A stretch of 64,000 bases of DNA from Vulcanimicrobiota bacterium (GCA_028287565.1 JAQBPK010000054.1:1-64000); one strand, 5' to 3'; numbered from the stretch's first letter, positions 4,739 to 43,036 are shown. Numbers and translations: made by a program. Notes: a model not told the origin generated them from the sequence alone.

Positions 4739-4812
4739 GCGGGCGTTGCATAATGGTAATGCCCTTGCCTTCCAAGCAAGAGTCGCGGGTTCGATTCCCG
4801 CCGCCCGCTCCA
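4739..4812 (+). tRNA. tRNA-Gly (UCC), CCA encoded; likely phage attachment locus
   Basis: GCGGGCG...CGCCCGC TCCA; CTTCCAA anticodon loop; GCGGGTTCGATTCCCGC. Confidence 0.93.
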
Positions 4813-4817
4813 TCCGA

Positions 4818-4844
4818 AAAGCCATACGGCGTATGGCTTTTTTG
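4818..4844 (+). terminator. Rho-independent terminator after tRNA-Gly
   Basis: AAAGCCATAC-GGC-GTATGGCTTTTTT hairpin plus T-run. Confidence 0.75.
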
Positions 4845-5130: not shown

Positions 5131-6321
5131 GTGGCGAATGCGGCGCGGCGATCGCGTCCCGGTGACGGCTCGGTTTATCCCATCGGCGACGGTAAGTTCA
5201 TCGCCGCGATCTCGATGGGAGGGCGCGGGAATCGCCGGTACCGCCGCGTCACCAAGCCGTCAAAGGCCGAGGCGCTCGAAGCTCTGCGCCGCCTGCGCGC
5301 GGAATGCGCCCCGCTCGCGATCCTCGACGAGCCGGCCGTCACGCTGGAAACGTACCTTGCGGCCTGGCTTCACGAGACCGTCCGGCCGGCGGTTCGTAAG
5401 ACCACGCTCGCGACGTACTCGTCCATCCTCTCGACCCACGTCTACCCGCGCCTCGGCATGGTACGGCTGGACCGGCTCACGGCCGCGCATCTGCGCAAGT
5501 TACTCGCCGATCTGGAGCGCGAAGCCGTCGGCCCGCGCCTCCGAGAGGTTGTGCACCAGCGGCTCAAAGCCGCGCTTGCCGTCGCGGTGGAGCGCGGTGC
5601 GCTGGTCAAGAACCCGATGATCGGCGTCGCGCGCCATCGTGTCCCGCGCCGCACGATGAACGTCTGGAGCGCAGAGCAAGCCCGGATGTTCCTCGACGGC
5701 ACGGCCGACCACGAGCTCGCGGCGCTGTGGCGGCTGGCACTCTCGGCGGGCCTGCGGCGCGGCGAGATCCTTGCGCTTCGCACTGTCGACTTCGACGCGC
5801 GCGGACGTCGCCTGCGCATTCAGCACACGCTTTCGGCGGCCGGCGAGCTGCTCGAGCCCAAGACCGCGGGGGCGCGGCGGGCGATCGATCTGCCGGACCG
5901 CGCCGTCGCCGCGCTGCTGGATCACCGCCAGCGTCTGCTCGCCGCGGGCCTGGGCGGCTCCCTGTGGCTGTTCCCCGTCGAAGGCAAGGACGATCCGCGG
6001 CGCGGCGAGGTCCGGCTGCCGCGCGCCGTCGCTCGCGCATTCGAGCGCGCGACCGCGGCCGTCGACGGGGCGCTTCGTGAGCAGCTGGACGCGCAGCCGG
6101 GTCGCGCGGAGCCCTCAAAACCCGGAGACGGCCTCCCGCGCATCCGGTTCCACGACCTGCGGCACACCTGCGCGACGCTCCACCTCGCGAACGGGACGCA
6201 CCCGAAGATCGTGTCGGAGATGCTCGGCCACGCCTCCATTCAGATCACGCTCGACACGTACTCGCACGTACTCCCGAGCATGCAGCGCGACGCCGCCGAC
6301 CGGTTCGACGCCGTGCTGTAG
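5131..6321 (+). CDS. int: phage integrase, tyrosine recombinase
   Basis: ALSAGLRRGEILALR, IRFHDLRHTCATLHLANG, MLGHASIQITLDTYSHV catalytic R/H-x-x-R/H/Y motifs. Confidence 0.95.
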   Translation: MANAARRSRPGDGSVYPIGDGKFIAAISMGGRGNRRYRRVTKPSKAEALEALRRLRAECAPLAILDEPAVTLETYLAAWLHETVRPAVRKTTLATYSSILSTHVYPRLGMVRLDRLTAAHLRKLLADLEREAVGPRLREVVHQRLKAALAVAVERGALVKNPMIGVARHRVPRRTMNVWSAEQARMFLDGTADHELAALWRLALSAGLRRGEILALRTVDFDARGRRLRIQHTLSAAGELLEPKTAGARRAIDLPDRAVAALLDHRQRLLAAGLGGSLWLFPVEGKDDPRRGEVRLPRAVARAFERATAAVDGALREQLDAQPGRAEPSKPGDGLPRIRFHDLRHTCATLHLANGTHPKIVSEMLGHASIQITLDTYSHVLPSMQRDAADRFDAVL

Positions 6322-6348: not shown

Positions 6349-6379
6349 CGCCCGTCGCCTTTCCCGGCGGCGGGCGTTT
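6349..6379 (+). terminator. Intrinsic terminator after int
   Basis: CGCCCGTCGCC-TTTCCC-GGCGGCGGGCG stem followed by TTT. Confidence 0.55.
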
Positions 6380-6454: not shown

Positions 6455-6470
6455 CGGCACTTTAGTGCCG
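6455..6470. promoter_or_regulatory. Palindromic operator-like site A
   Basis: CGGCAC-TTTA-GTGCCG, 33 bp upstream of the small-peptide ORF. Confidence 0.6.
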
Positions 6471-6502
6471 ATTGCGCGTTTTCGCTCGAAAGGCGGTTCC
6501 CC

Positions 6503-6667
6503 GTGAATCTCTTGCTCGCGACTCTTTTAGCGCTGGCGCTCGGCGCGCCCGGCCTGTTCGACACCGGTGGCGGCGGTCCGTCGTTCGTAAGTCCGACCAC
6601 CTACGACACCGGCGGCGGCGGTCCGAGCAAAAACTGTCCGCCATCACTTCCGGACTGCATACCGTAG
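6503..6667 (+). CDS. Small secreted peptide precursor (candidate signalling peptide)
   Basis: GTG start with SD-like AAAGGCGG; MNLLLATLLALALGAPGLFDTGGGGPSFVSPTTYDTGGGGPSKNCPPSLPDCIP; hydrophobic N-terminus, duplicated DTGGGGPS, two Cys; below the ORF-track length cutoff. Confidence 0.55.
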   Translation: MNLLLATLLALALGAPGLFDTGGGGPSFVSPTTYDTGGGGPSKNCPPSLPDCIP

Positions 6668-6703
6668 GGGCGGTTCGGTCACGGCACCGAAAGATCGGTT
6701 ACC

Positions 6704-8350
6704 GTGGAGAGGCGTCGAGTTTCGGCGCCTCTTTCTCGCCCTGTGGAGGGACCGGTCATCGGACAGACAGCCCGCTCTCACCGTCACCCGGGTCCCCGCG
6801 CATCGCTCGGCGACGCCATGCGCGCGTGGTTCGCCGGGGAATTCGATCGCTGCCTGGAGCTGTGCGACCGCGTTCGCCGCAACGATCCCGACACGCGCTC
6901 GCAAGTAGCGCTGCTGCGCGCACGCGCATACCTTCGCATCGGCCGCGCGCCCGAGGCTCACCGCATTCTCTCCGACGTCTTCGTTGCGCACGGGACGCTC
7001 GACGCCTCGCTGACCGCGCAGATGCTACTGGGCGCGGCTGAGGTCCGCATCGGCGCCGTCGAAGCCGGGCTGGCACGCCTTGAAGCCGCTCAGAAGTCCG
7101 CCGCGACGGCGCATCCGACGATCCGCTCGGAGATCGCGCTGAATCGAGCGCTTGCGTACTACGCCGACGGCGACCACCGCGCCGCGAGCGCTGCCCTAGC
7201 CGACGTCGACCGCGCCAGCGACATCGTGCATGCGCGCGCGCTGGAGTACGAAGGCTGGATCGCGACCGCGCGCGGCCGGCACGACGAAGCGGCGCGGCAC
7301 TTCGTCGCCGCAATCGAGCGGCTCGACACGTGCCGCCAGCAGGATCGGTTCCTAGAGGCGAACGCCCTACAAGCGCTCTCCTACCTCGCCGCGGAGCGCT
7401 TCGACGATGCCCTGTGGTCGTTCATCGAGACGCGCGCGGCCGGCGTCGATTGGACCGCCGACGGGCTCGCACTTCCGCGTTGGTGGATCACGATGAGCTC
7501 CGCGTTCGTGCACGAGGCGGCCGGCCGGACACTCCAGGCCTTCGCCGCGGCGCGCGAGGCTGTCTATACCGCGCCGACACCCGCCTACCGCGTGCACGCG
7601 CTCCTGCGCCGGTCCATCGTGGCCCGCAACGTCGGCGAACAGTTCTCGCCGCTCGACACGCTCCACAGCGCGCGCGCCGCGTTCGACGCGATCGACCCGC
7701 GCACGCTGACGGGCGACGAGCGGACCGTGCCGCTGGTCCTCGCCGAAGCGTTCGCGCAGGTCGCCCGCGAGATGGAAAGCGCCGAGGCGCTCGACCTCGC
7801 GCGCCGGTACGAACGGCTCTACTGCGAGCTCGCGCCGATGACACGGGTCTCGGCGATGAGCCAGGATCCGCGGACGCCCGCGCTCGAGCATGCGGTCCGC
7901 GCGACGATCGCCGAGGCCGCTGGCGACACCGCGACCGCGTACGCCGCGTACAACGAGGCGTTTCGCGCCCACAAGGCGCTCGGCTTCAGGCGCCGTGCCG
8001 CCGCCTGCGCGTACCGGCTGGGCGAGCTCACGGGCTTCGACCACTTCTACGCCTACGTCGTCGAAAGCACGCGTGACGTCGACCGCTCCTACTGGCTGCG
8101 CCGTCTCATGCGCCGGCGCGAATGCGGCTACCGCGATCCGATCGCGCGCAACCTCACGCCTTCGCAGCGCGAGGTGCTTGTCGCTATCTGCCAAGGCAAG
8201 ACGAACGGCGAGATCGCGCGCCTGCGCGACCGCTCCGAATCCACCATAAAGCACATCGTGACGGAGCTGCTGCGCGCGTTCGGCGTGGAGAGCCGCGAGC
8301 AGCTCATCGTCGCGTGCGCGCGGAGATTATCGGTGGTCGAAGTCCCGTAG
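6704..8350 (+). CDS. TPR-repeat LuxR-family transcriptional regulator
   Basis: Helical TPR-like repeats through the body and C-terminal GerE HTH (LTPSQREVLVAICQGKTNGEIARLRDRSESTIKHIVTELLRAFGVESREQLI); true start uncertain. Confidence 0.8.
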   Translation: MERRRVSAPLSRPVEGPVIGQTARSHRHPGPRASLGDAMRAWFAGEFDRCLELCDRVRRNDPDTRSQVALLRARAYLRIGRAPEAHRILSDVFVAHGTLDASLTAQMLLGAAEVRIGAVEAGLARLEAAQKSAATAHPTIRSEIALNRALAYYADGDHRAASAALADVDRASDIVHARALEYEGWIATARGRHDEAARHFVAAIERLDTCRQQDRFLEANALQALSYLAAERFDDALWSFIETRAAGVDWTADGLALPRWWITMSSAFVHEAAGRTLQAFAAAREAVYTAPTPAYRVHALLRRSIVARNVGEQFSPLDTLHSARAAFDAIDPRTLTGDERTVPLVLAEAFAQVAREMESAEALDLARRYERLYCELAPMTRVSAMSQDPRTPALEHAVRATIAEAAGDTATAYAAYNEAFRAHKALGFRRRAAACAYRLGELTGFDHFYAYVVESTRDVDRSYWLRRLMRRRECGYRDPIARNLTPSQREVLVAICQGKTNGEIARLRDRSESTIKHIVTELLRAFGVESREQLIVACARRLSVVEVP

Positions 8351-8401
8351 CGTCAGCGCGCTAGCATTACAACTAACCCGTTTGTACGTTGGCGCTCTGT
8401 G

Positions 8402-8417
8402 CGGCACCAAAGTGCCG
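8402..8417. promoter_or_regulatory. Palindromic operator-like site B
   Basis: CGGCAC-CAAA-GTGCCG; 15/16 match to the reverse complement of site A. Confidence 0.6.
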
Positions 8418-8430
8418 GTAGACAAACATC

Positions 8431-8446
8431 GGTACGGCAGCGTACC
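8431..8446. promoter_or_regulatory. Second inverted repeat beside site B
   Basis: GGTACG-GCAG-CGTACC. Confidence 0.4.
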
Positions 8447-8463
8447 ATCGGGTGCCATGCAGA

Positions 8464-8655
8464 TCAGAAGTGCGGCGTTGGACTCGACGACCCCGACGAC
8501 AATAGCGTTAGTGCGAGAAAGAACGTCACGATCGCGCACAGCGCGTAACCGATTCGGCCGGCGTTCGACGGCGCGCCGTCCTCTCGCGAGGTGATCTCAG
8601 CGAAGCAGCGCGCGAGCGTGTACGCGGCGACGATGAGGCCGATGAGTTGGATCAC
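8464..8655 (-). CDS. small membrane protein
   Basis: 63 aa with two hydrophobic segments. Confidence 0.5.
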   Translation of the reverse strand: MIQLIGLIVAAYTLARCFAEITSREDGAPSNAGRIGYALCAIVTFFLALTLLSSGSSSPTPHF

Positions 8656-8659
8656 GGCG

Positions 8660-9262
8660 TTATCGAATCGCAGTTGGGTCGATTGTGTACCGGACTTCCG
8701 TTACCGTTCTTTGGTATTCGCTGGCGATCATCGCGTTTGCCAGGATTACGGTCATCGGCTTACTTAGATTGAGCTTCTTTGAATCAAAGCTCGCATGTAC
8801 GTGTTGCCAGAATCTGTCCGTCGGCGATGAATGATTAACCGAGTTTTTGACGGGTTGAATTATCTTTCCGTCCTGGCGTATGACGAGCCTCGCGCCGTCG
8901 TTTGCGGAAACTCGGTCACTGAAAATAAGCATGTCGAGGTCGAGGGTTCGCATGGCGATAGCTTCTTCGATCGCCTGAGGGTCCGGCTCGCGATATTGTG
9001 CGGCCGCTTCGGCACTGACAAAATAAAGCAACTCGAACGGGGTTTCAACCGTGAGGCTCGTGCCGACCGGCGCAGGCGCTTCCGCATCGGCTTTCGGAAG
9101 CCATTCGCCTCCAGCCGCATACGCAGCTGGTATTCCCTTCTGTTGCAGGCCAGCCACGACAGCGGCGCGCGCTGCTGCTGGCGAGAGCGGGATTTCCATT
9201 GCGGTCGCAACTCCGCCCGTCATCGCGATCGCGATGGCCACCGCCCACATCAGCCGATACAT
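8660..9262 (-). CDS. secreted protein (candidate lysogenic-conversion gene)
   Basis: N-terminal signal peptide MYRLMWAVAIAIAMTGGVATA; - strand in the lysogeny region. Confidence 0.6.
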   Translation of the reverse strand: MYRLMWAVAIAIAMTGGVATAMEIPLSPAAARAAVVAGLQQKGIPAAYAAGGEWLPKADAEAPAPVGTSLTVETPFELLYFVSAEAAAQYREPDPQAIEEAIAMRTLDLDMLIFSDRVSANDGARLVIRQDGKIIQPVKNSVNHSSPTDRFWQHVHASFDSKKLNLSKPMTVILANAMIASEYQRTVTEVRYTIDPTAIR

Positions 9263-9475
9263 AGAAACCCCTCTCTATCACAGATTGCCGCTGAACGCGC
9301 GCGACCGTTCAATGCCACCCTGGTGGTCATCAGCCGCGCGAATCTACGTTCGATCCCCGGCGGAAGCCGGGTTCGGCGCCGGGAGCCGGCGTCGTCATGG
9401 GATTCGCCGTGAGCGACAGAGACAATAGGTACAATGGGCTGCCGCTCTTCGAGGCGAATGCTGGAGGCGTGTCCT

Positions 9476-10246
9476 CTAAGGTGACGGAGCTGCACCGGGA
9501 CCCTCTCGTTCGAGCCGTCGTAGCGTTGCGGCAGCTGTCTTCAGAGATGGAGGAGCGTCGCCGCGACGCGCGAGGTCCTCAAGAGCTGGAACTAGCGCTT
9601 GCAACACCGCTTCGAATCGAGGTTGACGTTCGCCATTATCGGTTCGCTGGCGCGTCTGCTGCTGCGAATCTGTTAGCGCATCGGGATCCCGAAGGACCGC
9701 TCCCAGAAGAAGGTCTGGAAACGCCCCGATAAACGTCCCGCGCGACGGGCTGACGTCGAATAGCTTGGCGGCCGTCTCCGCGGCCTGTCGTTCGACGAGT
9801 TCCTTCTCTGCGGGATTTCCTTCGATGGTCGTTATCGCGGCTCGCACGGCTTCACTCGGCGTGCGTCGCTCGTTTACCGCGAACCGCATCATCTCCACAA
9901 AGCCTTCAAGGGCGGGCTGAATGTTCGGCCGGGCGTCAAACGCGTCGGCGACTCGCGCGCCGAAGTAGATTATCCGCGCGACCCCTTGCGGCGTCAGAGG
10001 CCGTACGTCGGTAATGGTCACCGCTCGGGAATCCTGGCGGCTCGGCTCGCGCTCGCCCGCAAGCTCCCATGGTGAGATGCCAAGCCGCTTACAGAGCCGG
10101 AGCGCGGCGTCGAGCTTCAGCGTTTGAGTGTCGCCGCGGCGCAGCTTCCGCACCGCTCCCTCTGTGAGGTCGAGTAGGCTAGCGACCTCAACGTCCCGCA
10201 GGTCGGATGTCAGGCGGTTGAAGCGATCGGTGAACGTCTCGGGCAC
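9476..10246 (-). CDS. XRE-family repressor (cI-like)
   Basis: N-terminal HTH (EVASLLDLTEGAVRKLRRGDTQTLKLDAALRLCKRLG); divergent from Cro-like gene; GTG start. Confidence 0.75.
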   Translation of the reverse strand: MPETFTDRFNRLTSDLRDVEVASLLDLTEGAVRKLRRGDTQTLKLDAALRLCKRLGISPWELAGEREPSRQDSRAVTITDVRPLTPQGVARIIYFGARVADAFDARPNIQPALEGFVEMMRFAVNERRTPSEAVRAAITTIEGNPAEKELVERQAAETAAKLFDVSPSRGTFIGAFPDLLLGAVLRDPDALTDSQQQTRQRTDNGERQPRFEAVLQALVPALEDLARRGDAPPSLKTAAATLRRLEREGPGAAPSP

Positions 10247-10294
10247 GACTTTTAATATCCGTCCAAAAGTCCTTACTTAGGTCTTGACTTGCCG

Positions 10295-10312
10295 ACCGTA
10301 CTTTGGTACGGT
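10295..10312. promoter_or_regulatory. Operator-like palindrome (site C) in the cI/cro divergent promoter
   Basis: ACCGTAC-TTTG-GTACGGT perfect inverted repeat, downstream of a TTGACT -35-like hexamer at 10284. Confidence 0.7.
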
Positions 10313-10320
10313 TCGCACAT

Positions 10321-10546
10321 GGACGTCAGAGCGGCGCTGAAAGAAGCTGCCGAGCGCAATGGATGGTCCCCGACTCGCGTCGCCGCCGAGGTTGGCATGA
10401 GCGAGGCGGGCATTCGGAAGTTCTACGCTGGCGACAGCGCGACGCTCAAGAGCGACGCGCTCGTCGTACTGATGCGCGAACTCCCCGGCTTCGCTGAAAA
10501 GCTCGGCTTCGACCCTCGACCCGAGGCGAACGGTCATGCAGCCTAG
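10321..10546 (+). CDS. XRE-family HTH protein (Cro-like)
   Basis: WSPTRVAAEVGMSEAGIRKFYAGDSATLKSDALVVLM; ATG at 10321, very short leader. Confidence 0.75.
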
Positions 10547-38092: not shown

Positions 38093-38986
38093 ATGGCCGA
38101 CGCGATCGTGCTCGTCGAACCCGCACTGCCGGCTGAAAAACGCGCTTATAAAATAAGCGACGGACGCAGGCCGACCGATCCCGAGCTGATCGACCTCTGG
38201 CTGCACGGTCGACCGCGCAACACCGTCACGGCCTACCGACGTGACGTGCGCCGGATGCTCGACTTCATCGGCGTCCCGATCGGGGCCGTCCGACTCGTCG
38301 ACCTTCACGCCTTCGCTGACTCGCTCGTCGGCGAACCTGCGACACGCAAGCGCGTGCTGAGCGCGACGAAGAGCCTACTGAAGTTCCTGGCCACGGCCGG
38401 CGCGATCGAGTACAACGTCGGCGCAGCGCTACGCGTGCCAAAGGGCCGCGACGCCCTGGCGGACCGGATCCTCACCAAGGCCGACACGAAAAAGTTGCTC
38501 CGCTCGGGGCGACGGCCGCGCGACACCGCGCTACTGCGCCTGCTCTACGAGGGCGGCTTCCGCCGCGGCGAGCTCGCATCGCTGCGCTGGGTCGGAGTCG
38601 TTGCCGGCGAGGGATGCGCCTACGTCACCGTCGTGGGTAAGGGTTCGAAGACCCGGACCGTCCGCATCTCCAGCGACACGCTGGCCGCGCTCAACGCTCT
38701 CCGGGGCGAGGCGGCTGACGATGCGCCGGTCTTCACCGGACGACGCGGTGCCGCGCTCTCGGAGTCGCAGGTCTGGCGCGTCGTTCGCGGCGCTGCGAAG
38801 CGGGCGGGGCTGACCAAGCCGGTCAGTCCGCACTTCCTGCGACACGCGCACGCCTCGCACGCGCTCGACGCCGGCGCCCCGATCGCGCTCGTCCGCGACA
38901 CGCTCGGCCATTCGAGCGTCGCGGTCACGGACCGCTACCTTCACGCACGGCCAACCGAATCGAGCGGCAAGTACCTGCGGCTCTGA
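38093..38986 (+). CDS. XerC/D-like tyrosine recombinase
   Basis: Core-binding domain plus LYEGGFRRGELASLRW, VSPHFLRHAHASHAL, LGHSSVAVTDRYLHA. Confidence 0.92.
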   Translation: MADAIVLVEPALPAEKRAYKISDGRRPTDPELIDLWLHGRPRNTVTAYRRDVRRMLDFIGVPIGAVRLVDLHAFADSLVGEPATRKRVLSATKSLLKFLATAGAIEYNVGAALRVPKGRDALADRILTKADTKKLLRSGRRPRDTALLRLLYEGGFRRGELASLRWVGVVAGEGCAYVTVVGKGSKTRTVRISSDTLAALNALRGEAADDAPVFTGRRGAALSESQVWRVVRGAAKRAGLTKPVSPHFLRHAHASHALDAGAPIALVRDTLGHSSVAVTDRYLHARPTESSGKYLRL

Positions 38987-41521: not shown

Positions 41522-43036
41522 ATGCCGAACGTCATCCGCTCCGATGCGCAGAAGCGGGCGGCGTTCGCGGAACGGCTGCGCCGGTACAAAGACGACCCGA
41601 TCGGCTTCTGCCGCGACGTGCTCGACATGGATCCGCACGAGGGGCAGCAGCGTTGGCTCACGGAGTCCGGAGCGGGCCAGTGGCAGCCCGTCGACGTGAA
41701 GAGTCGCGCGCTAACGTGGCGCTGGCGCACGAGCGAGAACGCGCTCACGACCGGCAACCGCTGGGGCAAGTCGCACACCGCGGCCGCCAAGCGCATCTGG
41801 AAGGCCGTCTACCGCAAGGGTTGGGACGACGCGATCAAGGCCGCGATGCGCAAGAAGCACGCGCCGTATCGCGGAATCAATATCTCGCTGACGGCGGACC
41901 AAGCCGGGCTCGTGTGGCGCAAGGCGTTCGGGATGCTGCAGGGGCCCAAGGCGGCCTGGCTGCTGCGCGACGTGAAGATGACGCCGTTTCCGACGTTCGA
42001 GTTCCTCAACGGCGCGCTGTTCGAAGCCCGCTCCACCGCGCGTGACGGCTTTCACCTGCTGGGCAACGACTACGACGACGTCAACTGGGACGAAGCTGCC
42101 TTCGAACCAAAGTTCGGTTCGATCCTCGACAACGTGCTTCGGATGCGGTTGGTCGACCGGCGCGGTACGCTCGACTACACGTCGACGGGCAACGGCCGCA
42201 ACGAGTACGGCCGCTTCTTCCTCGAAGCGCGGGCGGGGAAACTTCCCGGCGTCTACGCCCAAACTGGGCCAAGCTACGAAAACCCACACGTTCCGGCCGA
42301 TGAAGTCAAGAGAATCGCGGATCGCGTATCGGATCAAAAGCGCCGGCAAAACATCGGCGGCGAGATCGTCGACAACGGCGGCGACTTCTTCCCCGGCGAT
42401 GACATCACAGCGTTCTGGGACTCCGACCTCAACGACCAGATCGACATCGTCAGCCGCGACGACGAGCAGATCCCGACGCGCATCCGCCTCATGCTTGGTG
42501 GGCAGGCGTGGGAGACGCGGTATCCGTCGCATCGGTACGTGCACGGCTGGGACCTAGCGGAACGCAAAGACTGGGCGACCGGATTCACGATCGACACGAC
42601 GACGATGGTCGACGCGGACGGACGACCGCTCCGCATGCCGGTCGTCGAGTACGAGCGCTTTCACAAGCAAGGTTGGAAGCACGTCTACGCTCGCATCCGC
42701 GATCGCCACGCGCGATACGGCGGATCGGCGCGCGGCGTGACGGTCGTAGACTCAACCGGCGTCGGCGACACCGTCGTCGAGGAGCTCGAAGACATCAGGG
42801 CCGAGGGCTATTGGTTCACCGGGCCCGCCAAAGACGATCTGCTCGCGAACTTGCAATCAGCGCTCAGCACGCGCGAAGTCCGTGGCTTCTTCGTCGAGCA
42901 AGTCAACGACGAGCTGAGCTTCTACGACCGCAACGACAAAGGGCTCGTGAAAGACTGCGTCATGGGGCTCGCGCTCGCGGTGCTCTGGGCGATGCGCAAC
43001 AAGCCGCGCCCGATGCTCCTTCCCCGCCTCGTCTAA
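41522..43036 (+). CDS. terL: terminase large subunit
   Basis: ENALTTGNRWGKSHTAAAKRIWK (Walker A-like), NWDEAAFE, C-terminal nuclease-like HGWDLAERKDW and VVDSTGVGD. Confidence 0.88.
   Translation: MPNVIRSDAQKRAAFAERLRRYKDDPIGFCRDVLDMDPHEGQQRWLTESGAGQWQPVDVKSRALTWRWRTSENALTTGNRWGKSHTAAAKRIWKAVYRKGWDDAIKAAMRKKHAPYRGINISLTADQAGLVWRKAFGMLQGPKAAWLLRDVKMTPFPTFEFLNGALFEARSTARDGFHLLGNDYDDVNWDEAAFEPKFGSILDNVLRMRLVDRRGTLDYTSTGNGRNEYGRFFLEARAGKLPGVYAQTGPSYENPHVPADEVKRIADRVSDQKRRQNIGGEIVDNGGDFFPGDDITAFWDSDLNDQIDIVSRDDEQIPTRIRLMLGGQAWETRYPSHRYVHGWDLAERKDWATGFTIDTTTMVDADGRPLRMPVVEYERFHKQGWKHVYARIRDRHARYGGSARGVTVVDSTGVGDTVVEELEDIRAEGYWFTGPAKDDLLANLQSALSTREVRGFFVEQVNDELSFYDRNDKGLVKDCVMGLALAVLWAMRNKPRPMLLPRLV

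Follow-up and report, generated by a model that had tools for sequence, protein, structure and literature searches.

In the arbitrium system (AimR-AimP), Bacillus phages control their lysogeny by means of a peptide. There, as in RRNPP(A) systems, a secreted-type propeptide gene lies beside the gene for a TPR receptor, which is at the same time a DNA-binding regulator. In RRNPP(A) regulators (AimR, Rgg, PlcR) an N-terminal HTH precedes the TPR domain; the hosts of arbitrium phages are Bacillota. Tandem propeptides, containing repeated pheromone cores, are a feature of RRNPPA systems (PMC11343458).

LuxR-type regulators provide a prophage-borne input to lysis/lysogeny in the Aeromonas phages ARM81ld and Apop and in a Phaeobacter prophage, which carries LuxI/LuxR. 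The known phage LuxR systems use acyl-homoserine lactones (AHL) and an N-terminal ligand domain (PMC6456758, PMC10432266, PMC13345283). In the two Aeromonas phages a small ORF is under LuxR control, in TF-smORF modules which act via a small anti-repressor (PMC6456758, PMC10432266). AHL-type receptors feature a C-terminal GerE HTH and a palindromic box upstream of the signal gene, about 20 bp long in LuxR/lux box autoregulation. MalT/LAL regulators, finally, combine a TPR superhelix and a following GerE HTH with a STAND NTPase.

The locus described here lies in a stretch of 64,000 nucleotides from a Vulcanimicrobiota bacterium (GCA_028287565.1, JAQBPK010000054.1:1-64000), indicated as the window. 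It shares with arbitrium the pairing of propeptide and TPR-regulator genes and the location in a prophage, the proposed target being the lysis/lysogeny switch, and with the RRNPPA tandem propeptides the repeated cores. The host, however, belongs to Eremiobacterota, and no AimX-like gene was identified. Judged from its sequence, the system is arbitrium-like in its predicted working but no RRNPP member, because of the C-terminal GerE-type HTH of its regulator and its non-Bacillota host (PMC10075063, PMC6458997). The GerE HTH and the palindrome upstream of the signal gene are in common with AHL-type receptors and lux box systems, while the signal class differs. In contrast to the Aeromonas and Phaeobacter systems, the window features a TPR domain, a secreted-type peptide and a predicted direct site at a cro-like promoter.

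A peptide/LuxR cassette at the left end of a prophage

The element is a genuine integrated prophage, with att sites, integrase, RecE/RecT, DnaB and portal. It is 83.4 kb long, and the region studied is its left end. attL (4765-4819, no strand) is a 55 bp exact repeat of the 3' end of tRNA-Gly, the tRNA gene being located at 4739-4812 with its 3' part within the repeat; attR, an exact 55 bp copy, is found at contig positions 88110-88164. A tyrosine integrase gene (5131-6321, + strand; Pfam PF00589, E 1.2e-15; PHROG integrase) adjoins attL. From here the order is integrase, site A, peptide, luxR, site B, two leftward ORFs, cI-like gene, site C and cro-like gene, sites A, B and C being the palindromes described below. 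RecE, RecT, DnaB helicase, methyltransferases, a terminase-like protein and portal are encoded 3' of the cro-like gene.

The peptide gene (6503-6667, + strand; GTG start, SD-like AAAGG) encodes a secreted-type peptide of 54 aa, VNLLLATLLALALGAPGLFDTGGGGPSFVSPTTYDTGGGGPSKNCPPSLPDCIP, where the core DTGGGGPS is present twice, in a region also repeated at the DNA level. It looks like a pheromone precursor, with predicted processing and export; this reading is based on the analogy with the tandem propeptides of RRNPPA systems (PMC11343458). The LuxR-type regulator (6704-8350, + strand; 548 aa) is composed of an N-terminal TPR superhelix and a C-terminal GerE HTH (PF00196, E 1.3e-7; HTH at residues 483-536). 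Its AlphaFold2 model (mean pLDDT 84.7) shows an all-helical TPR superhelix, and MalT domain III is among the PDB matches of the model (TM 0.60 of target). In a Pfam search no N-terminal autoinducer-binding domain was found, the TPR occupying that place; the protein is not of the AHL type, since the ligand domain is missing. The same search gave no STAND NTPase match in the 548 aa: the regulator differs from MalT/LAL in this respect and in its pairing with a peptide gene.

The leftward operon contains, with the cI-like gene, a 63-aa hydrophobic ORF (8464-8655, - strand), having no Pfam match. A 200-aa ORF (8660-9262, - strand) between luxR and cI, with a signal-peptide-like N-terminus, matched no family in Pfam or PHROG searches. 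The cI-like regulator (9476-10246, - strand; 256 aa) has an N-terminal HTH (HTH_26, E 0.0032; PHROG repressor, E 0.00097) and no S24 peptidase domain; the Cro-like HTH protein (10319-10546, + strand; 75 aa) matches HTH_31 (E 0.00017). The names cI and cro were given from the arrangement of the genes, the protein sizes and weak HTH scores. The gap of 73 bp between the two genes contains an inverted repeat GACTTTT-N11-AAAAGTC (10247-10271, no strand), which lies over the cI-side start and is a candidate cI/Cro operator.

In IMG/VR searches no relatives turned up for the cI-like, LuxR and Cro-like proteins, and only distant ones for the integrase. No related prophage carrying the cassette was found; the arrangement is described from one genome only. 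Loci of the same genus pairing a cI-like HTH with LuxR a few kb apart resemble related prophages, but no integrase or Cro match was found in them, and L085, the single locus read over its whole length, has the look of host DNA.

Three palindromes and their chromosomal counterparts

Site A (CGGCACTTTAGTGCCG, 6455-6470), centred 40 nt 5' of the peptide start codon (-40), is the predicted LuxR box of the peptide/luxR operon. Site B (CGGCACCAAAGTGCCG, 8402-8417) is a second LuxR-box-like palindrome, and site C (ACCGTACTTTGGTACGGT, 10295-10312) a predicted LuxR box at the cro-like promoter; no strand is assigned to any of them. The coordinates and consensus fit given for the three sites by the initial annotation were confirmed, as was the identity of B with the reverse complement of A at 15 of 16 positions. 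The annotation had also asked whether the motif might occur at background frequency: the exact form is found, by pattern searches of prophage and host genome, only three times in 4.8 Mb, all within 3.9 kb at this locus, and once in 98 further genomes of the family. Within the window, four matches with up to two mismatches are present (0.5 expected; none of 100 shuffles reaches four), site A being included twice, as it is also read on the other strand. All these counts are post hoc, as the consensus was derived from the three sites themselves. The enrichment in the genome is limited to the exact class: one-mismatch forms are at background, with five matches as against six for the reversed control. 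In IMG/VR the exact site C sequence does not occur, while the A/B motif is found in 31 viral contigs, none of which encodes relatives of the window proteins; one of them, L183, carries the motif in repeated copies and is unrelated.

The host, an uncultured soil bacterium, encodes some twenty LuxR proteins that likewise combine TPR and GerE, and more are present in other genomes of the genus (Candidatus Eremiobacterota / WPS-2). In most cases a short ORF, hydrophobic at its N-terminal end, lies ahead of the luxR gene, making up many chromosomal cassettes where a secreted-type peptide gene is followed by a TPR-LuxR gene. The C-terminal part of the sister peptides contains GGPS, GGPD, GGGP or similar, often in two or three repeats. 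In 16 of 24 cassettes, not counting that of the window, a palindrome pairing at 6 or more of 7 arm positions has its centre at -48 to -38 relative to the peptide start codon. In 400 shuffles a mean of 0.96 and a maximum of 5 were obtained, a comparison which is somewhat flattering, as the band was picked after the positions were known; moving the rule 200 bp upstream left 1 of 24.

The closest sisters feature ACAGGTACGATCGTACCTGT-type boxes, which resemble the classical lux box, in the same frame GGYAC-N4-GTRCC. In 11 genomes, all five sites with a ACAGGTACGATCGTACCTGT-type flank are located at LuxR cassettes, unlike other GGTACGNNCGTACS sites. These closest sisters have a TATACT-like -10 some 10-11 nt upstream of the box; the box, being downstream of this element, is probably transcribed, and its position also differs from that of lux box systems. 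No good -10 was seen before site A. Since sister cassettes do not carry the A/B sequence, the possibility that A and B are terminal inverted repeats of a mobile cassette was rejected.

Box types go with HTH types: SLHTIRN is found with GGTACGATCGTACC, GEQTIKN with GTACCTTTGTAC and GTACTTTCGTAC, KTIAN/KTVAN with GGGAGGTTTCTCCC, and SESTIKH, in the window, with GGCACTTTAGTGCC. Among 16 cassettes, those more identical in the HTH also have more similar boxes (Mantel rho 0.49, p 0.0006), and the correlation persists after removal of TPR identity (partial r 0.40, p 0.0017). Recognition of the box by the HTH should give such covariation; common descent could be a partial source of it. The cassettes look like an undescribed family of peptide-responsive regulators, composed of a GGPx peptide, a TPR-LuxR and a cognate palindrome. 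The family and the conserved position of its box are the firmest results of this analysis. Nothing was found on peptide/TPR-LuxR pairs, or on such signalling in Eremiobacterota, in the open-access literature searched.

Candidate readers of the three sites

The initial annotation had left three candidates open, the Cro-like, cI-like and LuxR proteins; the comparative data single out LuxR. We consider it fairly probable that the TPR-LuxR (6704-8350) binds A, B and C as lux-box-like operators, coupling a peptide signal to the switch. Two lines of evidence point to LuxR as the reader: chromosomal cassettes lacking the integrase, cI and cro of this phage carry palindromes placed equally far from the start of the peptide gene, and the box sequence follows the LuxR HTH.

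Phage repressors may act at dispersed sites, as do P1 C1 and the L5 repressor. The Cro-like or the cI-like protein might thus read all three palindromes, C being the classical switch operator and A and B dispersed ones, where the repressor would keep the cassette silent, or on, in the lysogen. Site C does fall exactly on the cro-like promoter, the A, B and C sequences are found only in the phage, and the cassette adjoins the switch; yet this explanation is unlikely. Counterparts of site A occupy the same position in many chromosomal cassettes, and the sister loci checked have no match to this cI (bar a weak HTH in some), to Cro or to the integrase. The same operator at both divergent promoters is a classical Cro/CI feature, while here C is found on the cro side only: the cI side of the gap has the different inverted repeat, and C is thereby unpaired as an operator for Cro/CI. 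Relatives of the cI-like HTH, moreover, have a AGTCAATAG-type palindrome at their own promoters, and the best match to C comes from LuxR boxes of sister cassettes.

In the promoter of the cro-like gene, site C lies downstream of the -35 (TTGACT, 10284-10289) and extends over a weak -10 (TACGGT, 10307-10312); these hexamers were read by eye, match at 8 of 12 positions and are below the promoter-scan cut-off. The cro-like ATG follows 7 nt behind the site, and the promoter is probably leaderless. The core of C is as in A and B, but the outer arms differ (CCGTAC as against CGGCAC). These differences would fit a case in which A and B are LuxR boxes, serving autoregulation, and C is an independent Cro/cI operator, alike by chance and providing no coupling. 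A motif built from A alone ranks B second in the window and C 36th, which also favors such a chance likeness. B and C, however, have the 8-mer ACTTTGGT in common, and the core GYAC(TTTR)GTRC occurs just three times in the 83 kb of the prophage. A further indication comes from L068 and L073, sister LuxR cassettes of another genus, whose boxes are those most similar to C (14/18): a motif derived from these two boxes only, and using no window sequence, has C as its top position in the whole prophage. The score at C is moderate, as 83 kb of Markov sequence should contain 0.65 such hits, and versions of the motif with permuted columns score highest within the 73 bp gap in 27 of 2000 trials (1.35%). 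The support is real but not overwhelming; site C is a probable LuxR box on this comparison, and a chance resemblance is improbable.

A function of the palindromes in RNA, as hairpins or terminators (in the 5' leader of the peptide mRNA, and as a bidirectional terminator after luxR), and not as DNA operators, is very hard to credit. Each of the three does fold well as RNA (z -1.4, -2.7, -3.75), B lies between convergent 3' ends and the sister boxes are probably transcribed, but no T tract follows any of the sites, the integrase gene is equipped with a separate strong hairpin (about 6349-6376), a hairpin at C would be upstream of a leaderless start, and box sequence tracks the HTH.

Site B, where the 3' ends of luxR and of the leftward operon converge, is almost equidistant from A and C (1.95 and 1.89 kb). 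A promoter-like pair (TAGACA, 8419-8424; TACCAT, 8443-8448) abuts it on the + strand. An inverted repeat at 8431, beside B, was considered as a fourth box: it is probably not one, and corresponds instead to a terminator-like hairpin of the leftward operon (8430-8447, - strand).

A model for the switch and its meaning

The proposal that one regulator acts at A, B and C, coupling the cassette to the switch, fits the evidence, with coupling and peptide sensing retained as inferred parts. Under LuxR control of all three sites, LuxR would regulate its own peptide-luxR operon through site A, as in the chromosomal sister cassettes. At site C it would block, or less likely help, RNA polymerase at the cro-like promoter, affecting the early lytic operon; repression is the likelier sign, as the box follows the -10 in the closest sisters and lies over the -10 at C. 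Site B, with no obvious function at a promoter, may be an extra site, perhaps involved in looping between A and C, or may control the rightward promoter beside it or an antisense transcript. The TPR domain probably has the secreted-type peptide as its ligand: LuxR would change state according to how dense the peptide-producing cells are, and thereby bias lysis versus lysogeny. Should the peptide relieve repression, induction would be favored at high producer density; should it promote repression, lysogeny would be favored, as in arbitrium. What we infer is binding by LuxR, the peptide as ligand, the sign of regulation, the consequence for the decision of the phage and the part played by B. Receptor, peptide and box are short enough for testing in a laboratory host.

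More tentatively, and with slightly less than even confidence, an Eremiobacterota phage may run its own peptide communication from host-derived cassettes, through a receptor directly binding the cro-like promoter. It would be an independent counterpart of arbitrium with an unrelated receptor architecture, and the chromosomal cassettes would represent a peptide quorum-sensing family outside Bacillota. If true, this second, structurally unrelated case, from an uncultured phylum, would mean that viruses have adopted peptide signalling on more than one occasion, in this instance from a host family present in multiple copies, and may represent a novel means by which a virus links signalling between cells to its decision to stay dormant or to kill.

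Prophage boundaries and contents

The prophage, 83.4 kb long and extending beyond the end of the window, is delimited by identical 55 bp att sites derived from tRNA-Gly, attL at 4765–4819 and attR at 88110–88164 (contig C327, locus L022). A second integrase gene is found within it, at 38093–38986. Two leftward ORFs (8464–9262, minus strand), located between luxR and the cI-like gene, have no family matches; one is hydrophobic, while the other features a signal-peptide-like N-terminus, and both are candidate lysogenic conversion or exclusion genes.

Peptide precursors and TPR-LuxR homologues

In the peptide precursors of loci L002, L004, L013, L015, L063, L064 and L076, cores are repeated two or three times, as for NTVGGGPV, present in three copies in L013. 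At three loci, L066, L067 and L071 (contigs G090:C86, G088:C5 and G096:C5), TPR-LuxR homology ends ahead of the C-terminal HTH, with a peptide ORF still upstream: these homologues are possibly HTH-less receptors.

Palindromes and repeats

A weaker palindrome, CGAAC CAAA GTTCG, lies within a terminase-like gene (42102–42117) and has the same CAAA core. The phage contig L183 (IMGVR_UViG_3300032053_001768) carries a GGCGGCACTNAAGTGCCGCC repeat in three near-identical copies and is unrelated to the peptide/LuxR prophage system.

Relatives of the cI-like HTH, themselves 150 aa long, occur in other genera (L031, L032, L034, L036, L037); each features, at its own start, the palindrome AGTCAATAG..CTATTGACT, which is probably autoregulatory.
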